IMG/VR virus record: IMGVR_UViG_3300042691_027081
Location: 1-23,156 of that record
Length of the DNA: 23,156 nucleotides
DNA from: a virus
Strand: one strand, 5' to 3'
In this document: piece after piece, positions 4,660 through 22,446 of the stretch
How positions within the stretch are numbered: the first letter of the stretch is position 1
Layout of the letters: each line of letters opens with the position of its first letter
The notes under the pieces: model-generated
The model's database searches: none
What the model was told of the DNA's origin: nothing
Seen by the model: only the letters and a program-made list of their open reading frames with translations
Made by a program: the position numbers and the translations under genes

Positions 4660-5049
4660 ATGGCATATTCAGACAAAGTTATTGATCACTATGAGAATCC
4701 TCGTAACGTAGGTAGCTTTGATAAGAATGATACTGATGTTGGCACAGGCATGGTGGGAGCACCTGCCTGTGGCGACGTAATGAAGTTGCAAATCAAAGTA
4801 GGCGAAAATGGAATTATCGAAGATGCTAAGTTTAAGACTTATGGTTGCGGAAGTGCTATTGCGTCTAGTTCACTGGTCACTGAATGGCTTAAGGGCAAAA
4901 CACTTGACCAAGCAGGACAGATCAAGAATAGTGAGATTGCAACAGAGCTTGCACTCCCTCCGGTTAAAATACATTGTTCTATCTTAGCAGAAGATGCAAT
5001 TAAGGCGGCGGTAATTGACTACAAAGAAAAACATGGTATCACTAACTGA
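4660..5049 (+). CDS. iscU: Fe-S cluster scaffold protein IscU
   Basis: A 129 aa scaffold on which Fe-S clusters are assembled. All ligand residues are present at the same numbers as in E. coli IscU: C37 and D39 in PACGD, C63 in YGCGSA, and C106 in HCSI, next to an ALPPVKIHCS stretch equivalent to the HscA-binding LPPVK motif. The protein therefore looks functional. It overlaps iscA by 17 nt. No cysteine desulfurase is present in the window, so sulfur would have to come from a host desulfurase. The presence of a scaffold and carrier suggests support for host or phage Fe-S enzymes during infection. Confidence 0.95.
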   Translation: MAYSDKVIDHYENPRNVGSFDKNDTDVGTGMVGAPACGDVMKLQIKVGENGIIEDAKFKTYGCGSAIASSSLVTEWLKGKTLDQAGQIKNSEIATELALPPVKIHCSILAEDAIKAAVIDYKEKHGITN

Positions 5050-10273: not shown

Positions 10274-10855
10274 ATGAAAACACTCGAAACAGTTTCAGGT
10301 AAAAAAATTAATGTCACGGATCCAGATCCAGCCACAATAGACATTTCTGATATTGCATGGGCACTTAGTCGTATGCCTAGATTTTCAGGACATAGTATAC
10401 CTTATGTTCCGTATTCAGTAGCACAACATTGTATTCAAGTTATGAAAGAATTAGCACCGCACGGTCCTAGGATACAAATGCACGGACTATTGCATGATGC
10501 TGCAGAAGCATATATTAATGACTTGCCTAGCCCTATCAAACATATACCCGAGATACATGCCGTTATTAGCAAGTTAGAAGACAAACTAATGCTAACTATA
10601 TATGAAGCATTAGGCGTAGAACAGCCCACAGCAGAAGAGCATACGATTGTAAAAATTGCTGACAAACATCAGCAGGCAGTAGAAGCTTATAATTTTATGC
10701 ATTCTCGTGGTAATGACTGGAACTTACCTAAAGTAACATTTAAAAAATTACAAGAATTTGAACAGCCACTAACTAGTGTAAAAGCATATGATTTATTTTT
10801 ACAGCATTTTGAACTTTTACAAGAAGAATTAACAAAACAGAATTCTGTGGCATAA
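10274..10855 (+). CDS. HD-domain phosphohydrolase (YfbR-like)
   Basis: A 193 aa metal-dependent HD-superfamily protein. The H...HD...D motif is seen as H52 (VAQHCIQV), H74-D75 (LLHDAAEAY) and D130 (KIADKHQQ). The block [23 protein letters not shown] and the NDLPSPIKH segment match phage and bacterial YfbR-like 5'-deoxynucleotidases, which release deoxynucleosides from dNMPs. A role in recycling nucleotides from degraded host DNA would fit the reductase and exonuclease here. The ATG at 10274 follows the exonuclease stop; an upstream in-frame start at 10199 lies inside the exonuclease and is rejected. Confidence 0.82.
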
Positions 10856-10858
10856 ATA
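10829..10858 (+). promoter_or_regulatory. Candidate dnaK promoter: TTAACA...CATAAA, overlapping a late-type box CATAAATA
   Basis: TTAACA (10829-10834, 5/6 to -35) lies 16 nt from CATAAA (10851-10856, 4/6 to -10). This would start transcription at about 10863, exactly at the first base of the leader hairpin, the same geometry as at hsp20. The -10 also belongs to CATAAATA (10851-10858), a late-promoter-like box, so either polymerase form might use it. Confidence 0.4.
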
Positions 10859-10862
10859 AAAA

Positions 10863-10917
10863 TGTAGGACGCTTCGGGTTCTACAAGTTCTTGCTTAAAA
10901 TTAAGGAGATAAAAATG
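10863..10917 (+). promoter_or_regulatory. dnaK 5' leader: capped hairpin plus ROSE-like SD-masking hairpin (putative RNA thermometer)
   Basis: Hairpin 1 pairs TGTAGGAC (10863-10870) with GTTCTACA (10878-10885), with a bulged G and a C(UUCG)G cap. Hairpin 2 pairs UCUU-G-CUU (10889-10896, G10893 bulged) with AAGGAGA (10903-10909), covering the Shine-Dalgarno. UUGCU paired with AGGA through a bulged G is the hallmark of ROSE thermometers. The same two elements precede hsp20. This is inferred from sequence only. Confidence 0.65.
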
Positions 10918-12810
10918 AGCAAAATCATCGGTATTGATCTTGGCACCACAAACAGTTGTGTAGCCATTCTAGAAAACGGCGTAGCTAAAGTTATTGAAAA
11001 CTCAGAAGGCGCCCGTACAACACCTTCAATCGTCGCTTACACACAAGACGAAATTCTTGTAGGTGCAACAGCAAAACGACAAGCAGTTACAAATCCAAAA
11101 AGCACAATCTATGCAGCCAAACGGTTGATTGGTCGTAAGTTCTCTGAAAAAGAAGTTCAGAAGGATATCGACCTAATGCCTTACGACATTATGGAAGCTA
11201 AAAATGGCGATGCATGGATTCGCGCACAAGACAAAGAACTTGCACCACCACAAGTATCAGCCGAAGTACTTCGCAAAATGAAAAAGACAGCAGAAGACTA
11301 TTTAGGCACAGAAGTTACAAAAGCAGTTATTACAGTACCAGCTTACTTTAATGACAGCCAGCGTCAAGCAACTAAGGATGCAGGTAAGATTGCAGGACTA
11401 GAAGTATTGCGTATTATCAACGAGCCAACAGCGGCCGCACTAGCATATGGTGTAGATAAACAAGATACAAAGGATCGAAAAATTGCAGTATACGACCTAG
11501 GTGGTGGTACGTTTGATGTGAGTATTATTGAAATTGCCAACATTGATGGCGACAAACAAATCGAAGTACTATCAACAAACGGTGATACATTCCTCGGTGG
11601 TGAAGACTTTGACCAACGTCTAATGGATCACCTGGTTGATGAATTTAAGAAAGAAAACGGTATTGACTTAAAAAGCGACATGCTGGCCTTGCAACGTCTA
11701 AAAGACTCGGCTGAAAAAGCCAAGATTGAATTATCTAGCTCACAAAGTACTAGCGTAAACTTGCCGTATATTACAGCCGATGCTAGTGGACCCAAGCATT
11801 TAAATGTAACTATTAGTCGTGCCAAGTTTGAGTCAATGGTTGAGGATTTAATTCAGCGCAGTATCGAGCCTTGCAAAGTTGCTATGAAAGACGCTAATGT
11901 TAAAGCTAGCGATATCACCGAAGTAATTCTTGTTGGCGGACAAACACGTATGCCTAAAGTACAAGAAGCAGTTGAAAAATTGTTTGGTAAGGCACCACGT
12001 AAAGATGTTAACCCGGACGAAGCAGTAGCGGCGGGCGCGGCCATCCAAGGTGCAGTACTAAGTGGTGATAAAACAGACGTTCTATTGTTAGACGTTACTC
12101 CACTGAGCTTAGGTATTGAAACAATGGGCGGAATCTTTACAAAACTTATTGAAAAGAATACAACCATTCCTACTAAAAAATCACAAGTGTTTTCAACGGC
12201 AGAAGACAATCAGCCGGCTGTTGATATTAAAGTAGCACAAGGTGAACGTGAACTGTTCAAGTACAACAAAGCACTTGGTGAATTTAAACTTGATGGAATT
12301 AATCCAGCTCCACGCGGCCTTCCTCAAATTGAAGTTACCTTTGATATTGATGCTAACGGCATTATGAACATTAGTGCTAAAGATAAAAGCACAGGTAAAG
12401 AAAACAAAATTACTATCAAGAGTGATAGTGGTTTGAGTAAAGAAGATATCGAGCGTATGATTACAGAAGCAGAAGCAAATGCTGACGCTGACAAAAAGGC
12501 TCGTGAGCTAATTGATGCTAAAAATCAATCTGAAGGTGCTACACACAGTCTTAATAAAGATTTTGAAGAATTTAAAGATCAAATCACAGAAGATGAGAGA
12601 ACTAAATTCCAAGAAGCTGTTAAGTCTGTAGACGAAGCTCGCCTAGGAGAAGATGTAGAAGCAATCAATAAAGCCGTACAAAATATGTTTGAAGCAGCCG
12701 CACCTATTTTTACAAAGAAACAGGAAAAAGCTTCTTCAACCACAGCCCAACCAACTGAGGGCGAACAAACCGTTAATGCGGAGTTCAAAGAAGTTGATAA
12801 AAAAGACTAA
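10915..12810 (+). CDS. dnaK: Molecular chaperone DnaK (Hsp70), full length
   Basis: A 631 aa Hsp70 with a complete architecture. The nucleotide-binding domain includes [12 protein letters not shown] (residues 6-17), K69 in AAKRLIGR, the [10 protein letters not shown] phosphate loop and [11 protein letters not shown]. The interdomain linker and start of the substrate-binding domain follow ([16 protein letters not shown]). A helical lid and a C-terminal EFKEVDKKD tail, like the EEVD-type end of bacterial DnaK, complete it. [15 protein letters not shown] points to a beta/gammaproteobacterial type. The start is the ATG at 10915, 5 nt after AAGGAGAT; the TTG at 10891 lies inside the leader hairpin. 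No dnaJ or grpE is nearby, so host cochaperones are presumed. It probably folds virion or heat-stressed proteins. A full DnaK is unusual in a phage. Confidence 0.97.
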
Positions 12811-12822
12811 ATGTCTTATAAT
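12794..12822 (+). promoter_or_regulatory. hsp20 promoter within the dnaK 3' end
   Basis: TTGATA (12794-12799), a 17 nt spacer and TATAAT (12817-12822). The -35 is inside the last dnaK codons. The predicted start, near 12829, is at the base of the leader hairpin, so the transcript would begin with that hairpin. No sigma32-type (CTTGAA/CCCCAT) element is seen. Confidence 0.75.
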
Positions 12823-12827
12823 AGAAA

Positions 12828-12887
12828 TGTAGGGCGCCAATGGTTGGGCCCTACACAGTTCTTGCTTAATAAAGGAGATCTAAAATG
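12828..12887 (+). promoter_or_regulatory. hsp20 5' leader: covarying hairpin plus ROSE-like SD-masking hairpin (putative RNA thermometer)
   Basis: Hairpin 1 pairs TGTAGGGC (12828-12835) with GCCCTACA (12848-12855) and continues as CCAA/TTGG after a bulged G. Hairpin 2 pairs UCUU-G-CUU (12860-12867, G12864 bulged) with AAGGAGA (12872-12878) around an AAUA loop, hiding the Shine-Dalgarno. The shared 13-mer AGTTCTTGCTTAA is at 12857 here and at 10886 before dnaK. Pair changes between the two copies (A-U to G-C, G-U to G-C) keep helix 1. Confidence 0.72.
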
Positions 12888-13307
12888 ACACAATTAAGAA
12901 CTATTGATACAGCAGCTCTAGCTGGACTAAGTAGAGCACTAGTAGGATTTGATCGTTACTTCAACGTACCAAATCACCAAAATGGTAACTATCCTCCACA
13001 TAATATTGTGAAGTACAGTGAAAACCAATATGGTATTGAAGTTGCAGTAGCAGGTTTCAGCAAAGAAGAAATTACTGTAGAAGTTGATCAAGATCAACTA
13101 ACTATTACAGGTACTAAATCTACTGACGCTGATTCTTCTAAAGAATACTTACATCGTGGATTGGCTGCTCGAGACTTCGAACAAACATTTACTCTTGCTG
13201 AGTATATGGAAGTCAAAGGTGCAGAAGTTAAGGACGGTATGCTTAAAATTCAAATTGAGCGTATTGTGCCAGAAGCATTAAAGCCACGTCAAATCGAAAT
13301 TAAATAA
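12885..13307 (+). CDS. hsp20: Small heat-shock protein Hsp20/IbpA family
   Basis: A 140 aa alpha-crystallin-domain chaperone similar to IbpA. The N-terminal arm contains AGLSRALVGFDRYFN (residues 14-28). The crystallin domain runs from about 38 to 130, with NIVKYSENQYGIEVAVAGFSKEEI, DQLTITGTK and YLHRGLAARDFEQTFTLAEYMEV. A C-terminal I/V-x-P-like element follows (IVPEALKPRQIEIK). It holds unfolding proteins for Hsp70-dependent refolding, and the phage supplies dnaK just upstream. hsp20 genes are a hallmark of T4-like cyanophages and pelagiphages. It has its own promoter and a ROSE-like leader. The stop is followed by a GC-rich hairpin before clpS. Confidence 0.95.
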   Translation: MTQLRTIDTAALAGLSRALVGFDRYFNVPNHQNGNYPPHNIVKYSENQYGIEVAVAGFSKEEITVEVDQDQLTITGTKSTDADSSKEYLHRGLAARDFEQTFTLAEYMEVKGAEVKDGMLKIQIERIVPEALKPRQIEIK

Positions 13308-13355: not shown

Positions 13356-13658
13356 ATGCCCGGTACTGATATTCAACTAGACGAAAAAATTAAAGTAAAA
13401 GTAGCTGAACCAAAAAACTGGAAAGTTATTTTGCTTAACGATGACTCAACGCCGATGGAGTTTGTGATTTCCTTGCTAGTTGAGATTTTTAAACATACTC
13501 ATGATACAGCTAGAGATATTATGCTACAAGTTCACGAAACAGGTAGCGGCATTGCTGGTGTTTATAGTTTTGAAATCGCAGAAGCAAAGGCAGTGGAAGC
13601 AACTACACAAGCAAGAAGCAATGGATTTCCACTCCAAATTAAATTGGAGGAAGAATGA
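13356..13658 (+). CDS. clpS: ClpS, adaptor of the ClpAP protease
   Basis: A 100 aa N-end-rule adaptor. It has a short unstructured N-terminus (residues 1-20), then the core NWKVILLNDDSTPMEFVISLL. The DD-x-T-PMEF segment forms the N-degron pocket. HETGSGIAGVYSFEIAEAKA matches the family's HxxGxxxxGxYxxEIAExK block. ClpS delivers proteins with N-terminal Leu, Phe, Tyr or Trp to host ClpA and can block SsrA-tagged degradation, so a phage copy could redirect host proteolysis. It overlaps the heme oxygenase gene (ATGA). AAAGAG precedes the ATG. Confidence 0.93.
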   Translation: MPGTDIQLDEKIKVKVAEPKNWKVILLNDDSTPMEFVISLLVEIFKHTHDTARDIMLQVHETGSGIAGVYSFEIAEAKAVEATTQARSNGFPLQIKLEEE

Positions 13659-14209
13659 GTTTAAAAGATTTAACACACGAGCAACACAGACGAGCAGAAA
13701 CTAGACCCTTTGTTAAAATTCTATTTTCTGGGCATGTAAATCCAAAATTATATGCAACATACCTAAAAAATCAACACCCGCAATACGAAGTTTTGGAAGC
13801 CTGTGCTATGCCGCATCAATTGTTGCACGGCATTCCAGATATACGCAGGTCTCCTGCAATCCTAGAAGACTTCATTGAACTTTGGGGCAAGGACAACGAC
13901 GAACAACCGAAGATGTGTCCAGTAGTAAACGATTACATTAAGTATATTTTAAGTATTAAAGAAGATCCACATAAACTTATGGCTCATATGTATGTTCGAC
14001 ATATGGGAGATTTAAGTGGTGGACAAATGATTAGTAAACGGGTTCCTGGATCTGGGAAATATTATAAATTTAACGGTGATACAGAAGAAATTAAAAATGC
14101 CATCCGAGCCAAGTTAGATGATAGCATGGCAGACGAAGCAAAGGTTTGTTTTGATTTTGCAACTCGGTTTTTTGAAGAAATGATGGTTATTGCTAAAGAT
14201 TATGAATGA
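13655..14209 (+). CDS. ho1: Heme oxygenase
   Basis: A 184 aa HO-1 type heme oxygenase that opens heme to biliverdin, releasing iron and CO. The proximal heme histidine is H11 in THEQHRRAE. The distal helix has the diagnostic GDLSGGQ motif at 118-124 within AHMYVRHMGDLSGGQMISKR. The protein is shorter than most bacterial HO-1 (about 210-240 aa) but contains the core. It overlaps clpS by 4 nt and the bilin reductase by 8 nt, so product channelling to that enzyme is likely. Reducing power would come from ferredoxin. Known phage homologues exist in cyanophages and oceanic viral metagenomes. Confidence 0.93.
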   Translation: MSLKDLTHEQHRRAETRPFVKILFSGHVNPKLYATYLKNQHPQYEVLEACAMPHQLLHGIPDIRRSPAILEDFIELWGKDNDEQPKMCPVVNDYIKYILSIKEDPHKLMAHMYVRHMGDLSGGQMISKRVPGSGKYYKFNGDTEEIKNAIRAKLDDSMADEAKVCFDFATRFFEEMMVIAKDYE

Positions 14210-16826: not shown

Positions 16827-16878
16827 TTCGTTCTCTGCCGGTTGTAAATACTATACCGGACACCGGGAGCGAATCATG
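16827..16878 (+). promoter_or_regulatory. csgF leader with mutually exclusive hairpins covering the ribosome site
   Basis: CCGGT (16838-16842) can pair with either of two ACCGG copies (16855-16859 or 16862-16866). With the second copy, TTCGTTC (16827-16833) also pairs with GAGCGAA (16867-16873), giving a 12-bp bulged stem that buries the GGGAG Shine-Dalgarno. With the first copy the site stays free. This layout could control csgF translation. Confidence 0.5.
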
Positions 16879-17325
16879 AAATTCAAACTTTTTACCTTAG
16901 GCGGAATAATTCTGTCTCTATGCTCGCCAGCGTATGCAGAATTAGTACATCAATTCCAAAGCCCTGCCTTTATACCTGGCAATGGCTACAGTCAGCACGT
17001 TCTTAGCATCTATCAATTAGAAGAAAATAAAAAGAAAGAAATAAAAAGCGAAGAACTAGCCGCTATAGCCAAGGCAGAAGCAGCAGCCAAACAAACAAAT
17101 CTAAGTAAATTCCTAGTAAACGTAGAAGCACGTATATATGCTCAGTTATCTAAACAACTGGCAGATCAAATGTTTTCTGAAGGCGGCGGCGACAGCGGAA
17201 CTATGAATTTTCAAGGAACTAATATCAGTTGGGTAAAAACAGGTACAGATGTTACCCTTACGATTATAGAATCTAATGGCAGTCGTACAGAAATTGTTGT
17301 TCCTATAGCGAGCTTTGCATTCTAA
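16876..17325 (+). CDS. csgF: CsgF-like curli assembly protein
   Basis: A 149 aa secreted protein. The signal peptide is residues 1-21 (MKFKLFTLGGIILSLCSPAYA). The mature N-terminus ELVHQFQSPAFIPGNGYSQH corresponds to the TFQFRNPNFGG segment of E. coli CsgF, which inserts into the CsgG pore. A helical middle region (LSKFLVNVEARIYAQLSKQLADQMF) and a beta C-terminal part (NISWVKTGTDVTLTIIESNG) follow the CsgF order. In curli systems CsgF couples secretion to amyloid nucleation at the surface. It overlaps csgG by one base (TAATG). The ribosome site GGGAGCGAA is shared with two later genes of the module. Confidence 0.87.
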   Translation: MKFKLFTLGGIILSLCSPAYAELVHQFQSPAFIPGNGYSQHVLSIYQLEENKKKEIKSEELAAIAKAEAAAKQTNLSKFLVNVEARIYAQLSKQLADQMFSEGGGDSGTMNFQGTNISWVKTGTDVTLTIIESNGSRTEIVVPIASFAF

Positions 17326-18512
17326 TGAAAAAACTATTGTTATCATTGCTAGTAGCAGGAACATTATCAGGCTGTGCTACTGTTCATATGGATGCCGCTA
17401 GGGAAGAACCTATATCTTTGAAAACAAGAGAAAATCTTATAGAAAAACTTCCAGAGTTAGATGGTCCTTCAATGACTGTTGCAGTCTACGGTTTTATGGA
17501 CAAGACTGGACAAATGAAACCTAATGACAGACTGGCAGTATTTTCAAAGGCAGTTACACAAGGCGCTGAAGTATTTTTAATTAAAAGTTTACAAGACAGT
17601 AAAAATTGGTTTAAAGTAGTAGAACGTGTAGGACTAGATAATCTTGTAAAAGAAAGACAATTAATTCGAAATCAACGCGAAGTATACGAAGGCAAAGATG
17701 CCCGTCCTCTTAAACCTATGACAGTGGCAGGCATTATGATTGAAGGCGGCATTATTGGCTACGATAGTAATATACGTAGTGGTGGTAATGGTGCAAGATT
17801 TCTTGGTATTGGAGGAAGTCAGCAGTATCGTGTAGATGAAATTGTAATTAGTTTAAGATTAGTTAGTGTTAACAGTGGTGAAGTTTTGATTACAAATGCT
17901 GTGAGCAAAACAATTTACAGTACTCAACATAATGTAGGCGTACTTCGTTTTGTTGATGCTGGGACAAAAAGTTTAGAGTTAGAAAACGGTATGGCTTTAA
18001 ACGAGCCTACAACTTATGCAGTACGAGTAGCTATAGAACAAGCAGTACACGACATGATAGTCGAAGGTGAGAAAAAAGGCCTATGGAGGTACAAACTTGC
18101 TAAACCTGCTATTAAAGAGGAGAAGACAGATGAGTTGGTTCAACCACAAACCTCACAAACACCCCAAAGAGCCGCAGAGCCCCTACCATCCACACAGACA
18201 AACTCCAGCGTCAGAGAAAGCAATGGAGCAGGCCAAACAGACGAAACCAACAACCAGCGAGGCACTGAGGCTAAAGTAGAAACAGTAGTTCAGCGTGAAG
18301 AGAAAAAAACAGAGTTTACAACTGTGTATCTTAAACAAGATTCCTATGTTTATAAAGAACCAAACGAAAAAAGTCAAAGAACTTGGTTGTTGAAAAAAGG
18401 AACAGAGTTAAGCATACAAGGAACAGTTACCGAAGGATGGTATTTTGTAGTAGACGCCGAGAAGCGTAAAGGGTATGTGCGAACTGACGTGCTTTCAGAA
18501 CACAAATCATAA
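17325..18512 (+). CDS. csgG: CsgG-like curli secretion channel with C-terminal SH3b domain
   Basis: A 395 aa lipoprotein (E. coli CsgG is 277 aa). The lipobox is LSGC with C18. The CsgG domain spans about 45-265, with MTVAVYGFMDKTGQMKPNDR, the NNL/QLIRNQR-like KERQLIRNQRE segment, and IGYDSNIRSGGNGARFLGIG near the transmembrane hairpins. It is expected to form the nonameric outer-membrane pore for curlin export. A Gln/Thr/Glu-rich linker (265-329) leads to a bacterial SH3-like domain (330-395, TVYLKQDSYVYKEPNEKSQR ... GWYFVV ... GYVRTDVL), which may bind peptidoglycan. The SH3b addition is unusual. The linker also encodes a nested ORF in another frame. Confidence 0.9.
   Translation: MKKLLLSLLVAGTLSGCATVHMDAAREEPISLKTRENLIEKLPELDGPSMTVAVYGFMDKTGQMKPNDRLAVFSKAVTQGAEVFLIKSLQDSKNWFKVVERVGLDNLVKERQLIRNQREVYEGKDARPLKPMTVAGIMIEGGIIGYDSNIRSGGNGARFLGIGGSQQYRVDEIVISLRLVSVNSGEVLITNAVSKTIYSTQHNVGVLRFVDAGTKSLELENGMALNEPTTYAVRVAIEQAVHDMIVEGEKKGLWRYKLAKPAIKEEKTDELVQPQTSQTPQRAAEPLPSTQTNSSVRESNGAGQTDETNNQRGTEAKVETVVQREEKKTEFTTVYLKQDSYVYKEPNEKSQRTWLLKKGTELSIQGTVTEGWYFVVDAEKRKGYVRTDVLSEHKS
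18130..18279 (+). CDS. Possible nested 49 aa gene inside the csgG linker (different frame)
   Basis: The ATG at 18130 has an ideal ribosome site, GAGGAG, 7 nt upstream. The 49 aa product starts MSWFNHKPHKHPKEPQ and continues with PHRQTPASEKAMEQAKQ. It resembles small Trp/Phe/Pro-start phage proteins that I recall vaguely, in which a PHR...SP..E block recurs. It lies wholly within csgG in the +1 frame, and the local DNA is richer in C than its surroundings. It may be a real overprinted gene or the relic of an older gene now read as csgG linker. It could also be chance. Confidence 0.4.
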   Translation: MSWFNHKPHKHPKEPQSPYHPHRQTPASEKAMEQAKQTKPTTSEALRLK

Positions 18513-18554
18513 TTGAGTCAAGCATAGGAGAAAGTCTTTATTAAACTAAAATAT

Positions 18555-18590
18555 GGATGCATTAACAAACATAACTTGCATCCGGAGCGA
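18555..18590 (+). promoter_or_regulatory. Hairpin abutting the curlin ribosome site
   Basis: GGATGCA (18555-18561) pairs perfectly with TGCATCC (18577-18583), and the Shine-Dalgarno GGAGCGA starts on the very next base. This repeats the pattern before csgF and before the beta-barrel gene, where a hairpin arm touches GGAGCGAA. Confidence 0.45.
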
Positions 18591-18593
18591 AAA

Positions 18594-19265
18594 ATGAAAA
18601 AAAGAATCACAGGCGGTGGCGAGTTGTCGAGAAAACTACTTGCAATACTAATGACATCTGGAATGATGTCATCGGGAGCGTGGGCCAACGATGTTTATGT
18701 AGAACAAATTGGTGATAACTCATCGGTTTCAATCACACAAACAGGCGCTGGCAACTTAGTCAATGGTAACGTTGGTGGTAACGGTAATGCTGATGATGCA
18801 GCACTGATTAGAGGCGACCTTAACAACGTAACTATCAGTCAAATTGGTGCTAGTAATACACTTAGCATGATTATCAATAATGAATCCAATGGCACTGGCG
18901 CAACAGTAGTAGTTTCAGCAGACGGAAGTAATAACAATCAAACTATTGGTTGTGGAACTGCATTAAGTTCTGCTTGTAACGCCAGCATCATCAGATCTGA
19001 AATTACAGGTAATAACAACAATACTGTACAAACACTAAGTGGCGGCGTTGTTCAGAGCAAAATTGCTATTAACGGAAATTATAACAACGTAACGCATACT
19101 GCATCGGGAGTAGGTTTACATTCAGGAGAAATTACAGTTTCAGGTAGCGGCACAAGTACGATTGCTAATGCTGTAACCCTAACACAGAGTGGAGTATTCG
19201 CTAAAAATGCAGTTATTACCAGTAACGGTTCTAATAACAACGTTGTTGTTACTCAGTCCGATTAA
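18594..19265 (+). CDS. Curlin-repeat (CsgA/CsgB-like) amyloid subunit
   Basis: A 223 aa secreted protein. The signal peptide ends near residue 31 (MMSSGAWA). About seven imperfect Asn/Gly/Gln-rich repeats follow, such as VEQIGDNSSVSITQTGAGN, VTISQIGASNTLSMI, ITGNNNNTVQTLSG and ITSNGSNNNVVVTQSD. They match the curlin strand-loop-strand pattern that stacks into a beta-solenoid amyloid. Two cysteines (GCGTALSSACN) are unlike CsgA. CsgG and CsgF upstream supply export. CsgE and a separate minor subunit are not seen, so it may self-nucleate. The ATG at 18594 fits GGAGCGAAAA; the in-frame start at 18576 adds residues before a good signal peptide. Its last 59 nt overlap the FecR gene. Confidence 0.85.
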   Translation: MKKRITGGGELSRKLLAILMTSGMMSSGAWANDVYVEQIGDNSSVSITQTGAGNLVNGNVGGNGNADDAALIRGDLNNVTISQIGASNTLSMIINNESNGTGATVVVSADGSNNNQTIGCGTALSSACNASIIRSEITGNNNNTVQTLSGGVVQSKIAINGNYNNVTHTASGVGLHSGEITVSGSGTSTIANAVTLTQSGVFAKNAVITSNGSNNNVVVTQSD

Positions 19266-20310
19266 TAGCTTTGCCGGTGTTGGCAAAGTTACTGAACAGA
19301 CCGGGCCTACAGAAATTTTAAGGAATAAGAAAAGTATTCCTTCTAGTCTAAACACGGGCGTAGAGATGAATGACACCGTCTCTACAGCCAAAGCTAAAGC
19401 CGAATTAACTTTTGAAGATAAAACTACAGTCAAACTTACAGAACACAGTAAAATGATCATAGATGATTTTGTATATGATCCAAAGAAAGGTTCAGGTAAG
19501 TTGGCTTTAAATATGGCTTTAGGTACCGCACGTTATGCCAGCGGACAGATTGCCAAAAATAATCCTCAACAGGTAGCAATTAAAACACCAACCGCCAGTA
19601 TTGCTGTTCGTGGTACAGACTTTTCAATGACTGTGGACGAACTAGGAAGGAGTTTAGTTATGCTTCTTCCTAGTTGTGATCCCAAAGGCGGCTGTGTTAC
19701 TGGAGCAATTGAAGTTAGAAACTTTGGCGGCGTAGTTTTATTAGATGTTCCATACCAGGCTACACTAGTCAATAGTGCGTATACTCCTCCAACCGAACCT
19801 GTAGTAATTAAAATTGATCAAGCTAATATTAATAACATGTTGATCATCAGTAAACCAAAAGAAGTTGCAGATGCGGAAAATGCAGGTACCGTTAAGAAAG
19901 AAAAAGGTCTATTAGATTTTAATGAACTAGATTTTGACTTATTAAAATATTCTAAATTAGATGAAAATGCGTTGGACAAAAAAACATCACTAGATAGAAA
20001 TGACCTTGACGCTGATTTGTTAGCTTACAATTCATTAAACGAATTAGATAGACAAAATGCCAGTTTGTTAGGAGACGAATTAGATATACCTGTATTGCCA
20101 GGTTATAGTTCTAATAAGTCATTAGGACTATTATATTACTTTAATGACGATCAAAGTAAAGTCACTTTATATAAAGCAGGCACACATAATGCTACAGCAA
20201 CTTTTGATACAACAAAAAATGTTACTTTTACTTTAATACAAGATGGACAAACAATTATACAAAACGTTAATAAAGGATCGACTAGTACTATAATTATAGT
20301 ACAAAATTAA
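19207..20310 (+). CDS. FecR-domain secreted protein
   Basis: A 367 aa protein from ATG 19207. The signal peptide MQLLPVTVLITTLLLLSPIN...FA (1-23) is encoded out of frame inside the last curlin repeat. A FecR domain follows (about 26-150: VGKVTEQTGPTEILRN, TVSTAKAKAELTFEDKTTVKL, QVAIKTPTASIAVRGTDFSM). A less conserved part carries repeated Leu/Asp motifs (LLDFNELDFDLLKYSKLDEN), and the end is a beta segment. Stand-alone exported FecR domains occur beside CHASE2 proteins and surface structures in bacteria; here it may sense or scaffold in the periplasm. GGAG lies 12 nt before the ATG. A GTG at 19189 is the alternative start. Confidence 0.83.
   Translation: MQLLPVTVLITTLLLLSPINSFAGVGKVTEQTGPTEILRNKKSIPSSLNTGVEMNDTVSTAKAKAELTFEDKTTVKLTEHSKMIIDDFVYDPKKGSGKLALNMALGTARYASGQIAKNNPQQVAIKTPTASIAVRGTDFSMTVDELGRSLVMLLPSCDPKGGCVTGAIEVRNFGGVVLLDVPYQATLVNSAYTPPTEPVVIKIDQANINNMLIISKPKEVADAENAGTVKKEKGLLDFNELDFDLLKYSKLDENALDKKTSLDRNDLDADLLAYNSLNELDRQNASLLGDELDIPVLPGYSSNKSLGLLYYFNDDQSKVTLYKAGTHNATATFDTTKNVTFTLIQDGQTIIQNVNKGSTSTIIIVQN
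20267..20302 (+). promoter_or_regulatory. Candidate promoter with palindromic operator
   Basis: TTAATA (20267-20272), 16 nt, then TATAAT (20289-20294). The -10 lies within a perfect 18-bp palindrome, GTACTATAATTATAGTAC (20285-20302), like an operator. It sits in the last FecR codons and would give a leader of about 90 nt for the beta-barrel gene. The palindrome plus the T6 tract at 20317 could instead be a weak terminator. Confidence 0.4.
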
Positions 20311-20354
20311 ACACAGTTTTTTATTTCTATAACTTAGATTTAAATAATAGTACA

Positions 20355-20391
20355 CCAACACCAAAAAAAATAATAAAGTTGGGGAGCGAAA
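20355..20391 (+). promoter_or_regulatory. Hairpin and GGAGCGAA ribosome site of the beta-barrel gene
   Basis: CCAAC (20355-20359) can pair with GTTGG (20378-20382), whose last two G residues begin the Shine-Dalgarno GGGGAG. The helix is only 5 bp, the weakest of the three, but it keeps the same relation to GGAGCGAA as before csgF and the curlin gene. Confidence 0.35.
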
Positions 20392-22446
20392 ATGAAAAAA
20401 CAATTAATTGCAGCAATAGTTGCCGCTATGCTATCGGTACCGGCAATCGCAGGAAATGAAATATTAGTAAATGAATTTATAAAAGCAGGAGTAAATGAAT
20501 CAACAGGTACGCTGGGAAGTGGAGGAAACACCAATCCAGGACTACAGTACGATAACACTGGTACTGGAACATTTAACTCTGCATACGATTATCTAACACC
20601 AGGTTCGCCCTATGAGGGCTGGGCTGTTCGTATAGATAACGCAGACGGAACGAAGTTCAAGTTATACGGTAATAACAATGCTGGATTCCAAATGGACGGT
20701 AACATTCCTGTAACTGGAGCATGGGTTGGCACACCTACTGCGGCATCTGCGATATGGGCAGGTACAGCAACAGAATTTGGGATAAGACATACATACAGTC
20801 TACCATCCGCACAACGTTACTTAGACATTACTACACGCATTGAGGCTACTGCCGCAATGCCACATTTGTATTTTGGTCGTTATATTGACCCTGATGCTGT
20901 GGCAGCTCCTGGCGACAGTTCAGCAACTGATAACGTTCGTGGCTATGGCATCATTCCAAAGACCAACGTTGTATTCTCAGAAGCAACTGTGAGTCGGTAT
21001 GCTCTTGGTTTATACTCAGCACAAGTTGGAACTGTTAATACAAGTATCCAAGGATGGACAAGTGATCCAAAGAACTACTACCTAAACACAAACGGTCGTG
21101 CTGATGTTAGCAACGGTGATGACACAATTGGTATTGCGTTCTATGCAGCCAATGTTGCAGTAGGCGATATCTTAACATATAACTATGCTTACATTTTTGG
21201 ACCAAGTGCGTTTACTGCTGCCAACTACGCTATCACAGGCGGAGCAGGTGGTGGTACAGCAGGTACAAGTAGTTTTGGCACATTAGTCGACGTTGGTAGT
21301 GCTACTGATGCAGGATCAGGTACTACTACAACAACTCCGACTATTACTGGTACATCAACAGCAACCATTACTGTCAGCGATACCACTGCGATAAACACAA
21401 GTCTTCCAGTTATCACTGCTAGTCTAGCACATCACGAAGCAAGTGAAGCTAGTGGCAAGCAAACTATTGCTCGTGAAACAACAACAAATGTAACTACTCC
21501 ATACACACGTTCTGTTGTAACACTAGTTAGAACAACTAACACATGGAGTGACGGTACTACAACAACATCTGACAGCGCAACTACTACAACTGACACATTA
21601 GTTAATAATGTAGCTACTACTGTAGCTAATGATAGTTTCAGCGGACGTATTGATCAAATGTCATATTTAAATAATTTAAACAGACAACTAGATCGTGGAC
21701 TGAACATGGATGCTTTCCGTCAAGATGGTTACACAGATCAAGAGAAAAAGATAACTGTGTATGCAAATACCAGCGGTGCAAGATCAAACATAGACAATGG
21801 TTATAATGCTAGAAGTCAAGTCTATGGGCTAGGTGTTGAAAAAGAAATCAAACCAAATTGGAGATTAGGTGCTCAATATAATCGTGTGAATACTACTATG
21901 GATGGCACTGATTCTAAAACAGCACAAGACAAAAATCATGTTGGGTTGTTCTCTGTATATACAAACGACAAAGATGTTAAATTTGTTAACAACTTAGGTT
22001 ACTCTGACAACTCAGTTAAAGGCAATCGTACAATACCAGGTATTGATTTTAATAACAGTCATAGTACTAGAGGCGATAACTTATGGTTGAACAATAGAAT
22101 ATATGCTCCAGAGACAAAAGGATTCCGTCCATATGCTGGTGTTACAGTCGGGCGTTCAACAGTAGGTGGTTATACAGAAGCTGGTAGTATTCAAAGTGCT
22201 AGAACTGTAGCTAAAACTACAGACAACTACACATACGGTGAAGCTGGTGTACGTTATGAAAAAGAAATTGACAAGTTCCGTTTAATTGGTGATGTTAGCA
22301 CAACAACAGATTCTGTGACAACAGGCGCTGCTACAGTTGCTTATGCTCCAACAAAAACTGGTACTATCGCTTTAACAGCCGCAACACAGCATGGTAATAA
22401 TATTAACACTAACACAGTTTCGTTAAGGGGTATCATTAGATTTTAA
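20392..22446 (+). CDS. Outer-membrane beta-barrel protein, autotransporter-like
   Basis: A 684 aa protein with a clear signal peptide (MKKQLIAAIVAAMLSVPAIA, 1-20). A large Gly/Thr/Asn-rich surface domain (21-300) is followed by a Thr/Ser-rich stalk (about 303-413) and a C-terminal domain (452-684) of alternating strands such as KITVYANTSGARSNIDNG, YGLGVEKEIKPNWRLGAQYN and YGEAGVRYEKEIDKFRLIGD. It ends in the beta-barrel signature IIRF with terminal Phe. The overall layout is that of a type V autotransporter, with a passenger and a 10-12-strand translocator. It may be displayed on the infected cell next to the curli-like fibre. No protease or adhesin motif was recognised. Confidence 0.78.
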   Translation: MKKQLIAAIVAAMLSVPAIAGNEILVNEFIKAGVNESTGTLGSGGNTNPGLQYDNTGTGTFNSAYDYLTPGSPYEGWAVRIDNADGTKFKLYGNNNAGFQMDGNIPVTGAWVGTPTAASAIWAGTATEFGIRHTYSLPSAQRYLDITTRIEATAAMPHLYFGRYIDPDAVAAPGDSSATDNVRGYGIIPKTNVVFSEATVSRYALGLYSAQVGTVNTSIQGWTSDPKNYYLNTNGRADVSNGDDTIGIAFYAANVAVGDILTYNYAYIFGPSAFTAANYAITGGAGGGTAGTSSFGTLVDVGSATDAGSGTTTTTPTITGTSTATITVSDTTAINTSLPVITASLAHHEASEASGKQTIARETTTNVTTPYTRSVVTLVRTTNTWSDGTTTTSDSATTTTDTLVNNVATTVANDSFSGRIDQMSYLNNLNRQLDRGLNMDAFRQDGYTDQEKKITVYANTSGARSNIDNGYNARSQVYGLGVEKEIKPNWRLGAQYNRVNTTMDGTDSKTAQDKNHVGLFSVYTNDKDVKFVNNLGYSDNSVKGNRTIPGIDFNNSHSTRGDNLWLNNRIYAPETKGFRPYAGVTVGRSTVGGYTEAGSIQSARTVAKTTDNYTYGEAGVRYEKEIDKFRLIGDVSTTTDSVTTGAATVAYAPTKTGTIALTAATQHGNNINTNTVSLRGIIRF

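Follow-up and report, generated by a model that had tools for sequence, protein, structure and literature searches.

A two-hairpin, ROSE-like leader precedes hsp20 in viruses of aquatic bacteria and, in the freshwater phage group examined here, precedes dnaK as well. Both the structure and the conservation of this leader are shown. It is likely that the hsp20 and dnaK 5' leaders are ROSE-like RNA thermometers, with melting and heat-gated translation being inferred from tested bacterial elements. The analysis centers on a virus record of 23,156 bases, the whole of which is referred to as the window. The window encodes DnaK (10915-12810; 631 aa from the ATG at 10915; Pfam HSP70, E 2e-259) and, directly downstream, Hsp20 (12885-13307; 140 aa; Pfam HSP20, E 1.2e-18). 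Both genes, and all leader and promoter features described below, are on the + strand.

Results

The hsp20 leader

The hsp20 leader folds into two hairpins. Hairpin 1 (12828-12855) is GC-rich and contains a bulged G12836 within a YGCC..GGG module. Hairpin 2 (12860-12878), the presumed thermosensor, consists of UCUU-G-CUU paired with AAGGAGA, with G12864 bulged and an AAUA loop at 12868-12871. The pairs are U12860-A12878, C12861-G12877, U12862-A12876, U12863.G12875, C12865-G12874, U12866-A12873, and U12867-A12872. The AAGGAGA strand (12872-12878) is the Shine-Dalgarno (SD) sequence, located 6 nt before the ATG at 12885, and the opposing strand contains UUGCU (12862-12866), an anti-SD box matching the ROSE consensus U(U/C)GCU (PMC3669281, PMC11182007). 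The original prediction had described this pairing and its concealment of the SD, and it held exactly to the base.

As defined in PMC11182007 and PMC3669281, ROSE-like elements are recognized by U(U/C)GCU, a bulged G, and the SD. The hsp20 leader meets the criteria of this class: it is the 5' leader of a small heat-shock gene, it has a number of hairpins within the range of two to four with the SD in the last one, and its U(U/C)GCU box, here UUGCU, is imperfectly paired with the SD around a bulged G. The earlier identification of a bulged-G box of ROSE type was likewise upheld, and the two-hairpin anatomy matches that of E. coli and Pseudomonas ibpA.

A sigma70-type promoter (12794-12822) with 11 of 12 consensus matches, comprising TTGATA, a 17-nt spacer, and TATAAT, is located directly upstream of hairpin 1. 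A promoter of this type is found in 37 of 41 distinct relatives, with a 17-nt spacer in 34. This conservation is consistent with the earlier claim that a sigma32 promoter is absent. The accompanying claim that the transcript starts at the first hairpin holds as an inference from the position of the promoter.

A leader of the same kind on dnaK

The original prediction was confined to hsp20, and this scope is too narrow; a leader of the same kind before dnaK (10863-10909) had been missed, and it is likewise present in relatives. Hairpin 1 (10863-10885) is followed by hairpin 2 (10889-10909), in which UCUU-G-CUUA is paired with UAAGGAGA and which ends 5 nt before the ATG. A covariance model (CM) built only from phage leaders matched 10864-10909 with 37.3 bits (match R1). 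A terminator scan also flagged the hairpin at 10863-10885; it is followed by AGTTCTTGCT, ten bases identical to those after the hsp20 hairpin. The promoter is of a different type. A T4-late-type motif, CATAAATA, is located at 10851-10858, and the motif NATAAATA precedes dnaK in 31 of 38 distinct relatives. The presumed transcription starts from the hsp20 and dnaK promoters both fall near hairpin 1. From what is generally known of T4-like phages, the hsp20 promoter is inferred to be early and the dnaK promoter late.

The dnaK leader does not appear to be of bacterial origin. The UYGCU box was found in none of 80 bacterial dnaK loci, where the phage CM also gave no credible match, and a bacterial source was rejected on these grounds. 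Four jumbo-phage dnaK genes that were examined also lack the box.

Conservation and covariation

Viral hsp20 loci were gathered with the window Hsp20 (71 loci) and by three scans with cyanophage and pelagiphage Hsp20 proteins (154 additional loci). Nearly all readable leaders have hairpin 1 and, ahead of the SD, a box reading UUGCU or UCGCU; among the few exceptions, the leader of locus L237 has no recognizable element. Ten named phages contain the element: HTVC008M, Mosig, Melnitz-3, Sf-FR1, Bellamy, HTVC103P, C48C1, S-SKS1, Atu_ph07, and Phosso. In a pelagiphage-like group (L141-L148), UGUCU replaces UYGCU and, as read by eye, could still form a helix with AGGAGGUUAA that leaves a G unpaired.

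The structure of hairpin 2 is supported by covariation, and pairing between UYGCU and the SD is conserved across homologous phage leaders. The tally of hairpin 2 sequences was anchored on the UYGCU box, such that the core is fixed by the collection and only the flanking pairs provide an unbiased test. The pair adjoining the box is formed in all 125 distinct sequences, as C-G (104), A-U (14), or U-G (7), compared to a mean of 100 and a maximum of 109 when partners were shuffled. The second flanking pair, as U-A, A-U, C-G, or U-G, is formed in 100 of 125, compared to at most 93 with shuffled partners. Pairing in register reached 96%, versus no more than 65% when the strands were shifted by 1-3 nt and 52% when the bulge was removed. 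For example, AUCGCUU pairs with AAGGAU in HTVC103P, AACUUUGCUUU with AAAGGAGGUU in HTVC008M, and AACUUGCUU with AAGGAGUU in C48C1. Kinship among the sequences inflates these counts; nonetheless, the changes are distributed over distinct phage groups.

Covariation in hairpin 1 was assessed in the 19 leaders used to build the CM. An alignment of all 54 leaders with MAFFT misplaced the SD, and a subset with fixed spacing was used instead. Within this set 39 cells are changed on both sides of a pair, all in hairpin 1, with covariation at 7 of 9 pairs; none of 500 shuffles matched this number. Hairpin 2 is almost invariant in the same set and hence contributes little covariation information. It was also observed that hairpin 1 of the window and of related leaders contains a bulged-G module of its own, YGCY..RGG. 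The module was found in 148 of 169 leaders versus 5.6% of shuffles, and is present in the Rfam ROSE_3 consensus. The bulged G of hairpin 1 is the sole invariant column of the 54-leader alignment.

Restriction to chaperone genes

The pattern UYGCU..GGA precedes 164 of 494 distinct viral ORFs with an SD, and 159 of the 164 encode Hsp20 or DnaK, as judged from the starts of the proteins. Given this restriction and the 96% in-register pairing, the leader is not a chance occurrence. In 440 kb of loci the phage CM gave 128 matches, all of which are by position at hsp20 or dnaK starts except one inverted copy of the leader in locus L031 (4014-4058). Credible matches in 25 whole records were at hsp20 and dnaK genes. 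A second match in Atu_ph07, at 104901, lies within a CDS in antisense orientation and was taken as chance. In 240 betaproteobacterial genomes, the model matched four times, in each case at an hsp20 gene or the remnant of one. The bacterial hsp20 genes that follow a ROSE-like leader in L330 and L332 appear frameshifted or truncated.

Relationship to Rfam families and known thermometers

At gathering scores, Rfam identified no thermometer family in the window or in 31 other loci, with the exception of the E. coli control, and ROSE (RF00435) had no match in the window or related loci. At a relaxed threshold, ROSE_2 (RF01832) had the best match to the window leader among 4,227 families in an 86-nt search (22.1 bits, E 0.0049, full length). 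Since this score is below the ROSE_2 gathering score of 65 bits, the leader is called ROSE-like and not a member of the Rfam family. A search of a 301-base stretch did not list ROSE at E values up to 10; therefore, Rfam sensitivity depends on the size of the search. ROSE_3 (RF02523) was not among the matches listed for the window leader in the relaxed search. It is the nearest Rfam model for several other phage leaders, with 20.7-28.9 bits for Atu_ph07, S-SKS1, C48C1, Sf-FR1, L123, and L124, below its gathering score of 43, and it gave matches below gathering in two bacterial loci as well. Like the ROSE_2 match, the ROSE_3 matches were full length, and on several phage leaders one of these two families ranked best or close to best. 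The ROSE_3 consensus hairpin 1 reads GAUGCC..GGGUC with one unpaired base, like the phage hairpin 1.

The E. coli ibpA element, a ROSE_2 member (100.4 bits in the control region), has a hairpin 2 with a layout identical to that of the phage hairpin, UUCUYGCU-loop-AGGAG, with 3 bp, a bulged G, 3 bp, and a 4-nt loop. The phage sequence differs outside the core, and the predicted phage hairpin is weaker. In a 51-kb search with the phage-only CM, E. coli ibpA (10.8 bits, E 0.35) and ibpB (9.7 bits, E 0.7) ranked directly after the phage leaders, which is suggestive through position and not score. The short ROSE-like element of Pseudomonas ibpA also has two hairpins in a leader of approximately 60 nt, in which U(U/C)GCU forms an imperfect helix with the SD, as in the phages (PMC3669281). 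Unlike the Pseudomonas element, the phage elements are located in phages, lack a sigma32-type promoter, and are found on dnaK too.

Predicted melting

Hairpin 2 of hsp20 is part of the minimum-free-energy fold of the isolated leader across 10-42 C. Including coding sequence weakened the predicted closure of the SD, with a mean probability of GGAG being unpaired of approximately 0.25-0.34 at 15 C and 0.52-0.62 at 37 C. When 6-30 nt of coding sequence was attached, the dnaK leader was predicted to adopt alternative folds that leave the SD open or re-paired. Predicted melting of the phage leaders is gradual and dependent on RNA context. ViennaRNA melting curves do not separate known thermometers from controls, and ViennaRNA keeps the validated E. 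coli ibpA element shut even at 46 C. Since the same calculation fails to open ibpA, the folding energies neither prove nor refute thermosensing. The phage hairpins have a predicted mean of -4.4 kcal/mol at 25 C, compared to -4.6 for ibpA at 37 C. These model energies would be compatible with switches tuned to cooler water, a possibility for which the evidence is weak.

Discussion

A mechanism can be proposed from the arrangement of the two leaders and from tested bacterial elements. Transcription would start at or just upstream of hairpin 1, which would stay folded and probably stabilize the transcript. In hairpin 2, whose structure is supported by covariation, the U(U/C)GCU box conceals the SD by pairing with it around the bulged G plus one U.G or C-G pair. 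In Pseudomonas, the ibpA ROSE of 61-62 nt also has two hairpins, of which only hairpin II melts; when mutation completes the pairing with the SD, the hairpin is locked shut (PMC3669281). By analogy with such elements, a rise in the temperature of the infected cell would unfold hairpin 2, which is weak, and thereby free the SD and increase translation of both chaperones. One kind of RNA switch follows two types of promoter, so that temperature control would be superimposed on the timing of phage transcription. The original prediction that phage Hsp20 translation is heat-gated is supported, with opening by heat in the infected cell remaining an inference. Of the checks proposed with it that could be carried out, all but the Rfam gathering threshold favor a ROSE-like thermometer. 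Heat gating of the phage chaperones is strongly inferred and not shown, as no temperature response was measured.

Several alternative explanations were considered. The leader could be a binding site for phage Hsp20 itself, repressing translation until aggregates draw Hsp20 away, which would provide one aggregation-sensing feedback for hsp20 and dnaK and may act alongside temperature. There are no binding data, and this remains a possibility. In E. coli, translation of ibpA is repressed by IbpA itself via the mRNA 5' UTR; IbpA also suppresses ibpB, and R93 is essential (PMC10474464). Arginine is found at the R93 position in the window Hsp20 and in nine of ten named-phage proteins examined, and is absent from IbpB. 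The presence of the same leader on two chaperone genes also favors this explanation. However, the window Hsp20 has Q and T at the positions of R97 and K98, cationic residues needed in E. coli. It is less plausible that the hairpins are a fixed damper of translation or a 5' stabilizer without a useful temperature response, conserved because they keep the mRNA stable and its expression moderate. Stable hairpins at the 5' end can shield mRNA, as also suggested for Pseudomonas hairpin I (PMC3669281), and gradual predicted melting is compatible with such a role. However, the element is limited to chaperone genes, and the bulged-G UYGCU/SD architecture and the covariation are those of tested thermometers, making this explanation unlikely.

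The remaining alternatives have little support. The similar leader on some betaproteobacterial hsp20 genes raises the option that the element came from a bacterium together with hsp20 and persists only as a passive remnant. This is very unlikely, given that the element also precedes dnaK behind a different promoter type and that compensatory changes persist among Hsp20 proteins with less than 50% identity. A role as a transcription terminator or attenuator, or as the terminator of the upstream gene, is all but excluded. The only indication for it is that the terminator scan picked out hairpin 1 of dnaK. Hairpin 1 is not followed by a conserved U-run, on which basis the terminator reading was rejected; furthermore, the hairpin is downstream of a conserved promoter and the SD is within hairpin 2.

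The thermometer interpretation is therefore preferred, and it can be extended. One bolder possibility is a virus-borne chaperone regulon, in which ROSE-like switches set for cool water act on hsp20 and dnaK behind two promoter classes, Hsp20 may bind both leaders, and heat and aggregation jointly set chaperone supply for virion assembly.

The original prediction stated that no phage ROSE element was known. Neither a phage ROSE nor a ROSE-controlled dnaK was found in the literature searched, from which subscription journals were mostly absent. A 2013 study of cyanophage small heat-shock proteins does not mention a leader or thermometer. Phage lambda cIII, SPbeta blyA, and the fourU element of a sigma70 gene in gut Caudoviricetes also provide temperature control of phage mRNA (PMC11182007, PMC4166951), but these are not described as ROSE-type and are not on chaperone genes. 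Synechocystis hsp17 likewise has a leader thermometer on a small heat-shock gene; it is a single short hairpin (PMC4166951), whereas cyanophage leaders have the two-hairpin ROSE layout.

The ROSE-like architecture is widespread among phages, those infecting marine Synechococcus and Pelagibacter included, and extends to dnaK. The leaders suggest, by inference, that phages tune their own chaperones directly to temperature. If true, many aquatic viruses sense temperature directly through their own mRNA, a point relevant to infection in warming waters. In addition, the leaders supply a large natural collection of covarying ROSE sequences not captured by the Rfam models.

Additional features of the window and of another contig

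Directly downstream of hsp20, the window contains genes for a ClpS adaptor and a heme oxygenase (13356-14209), giving the order dnaK, hsp20, clpS, and heme oxygenase. In the G001 contig (L009), two inverted copies of the dnaK-hsp20 block at 21500-27500 and 33000-39000 (L344, L345) are 76% identical over 4.2 kb, and could be either a true duplication or the product of a chimeric contig; the inverted leader copy in L031 is similar. Elsewhere in the window, an IscU/NifU-type scaffold gene is located at 4660-5049, and curli-type genes (CsgF, CsgG, and a curlin repeat) together with an autotransporter-domain protein occupy 16876-22446 within the phage record.
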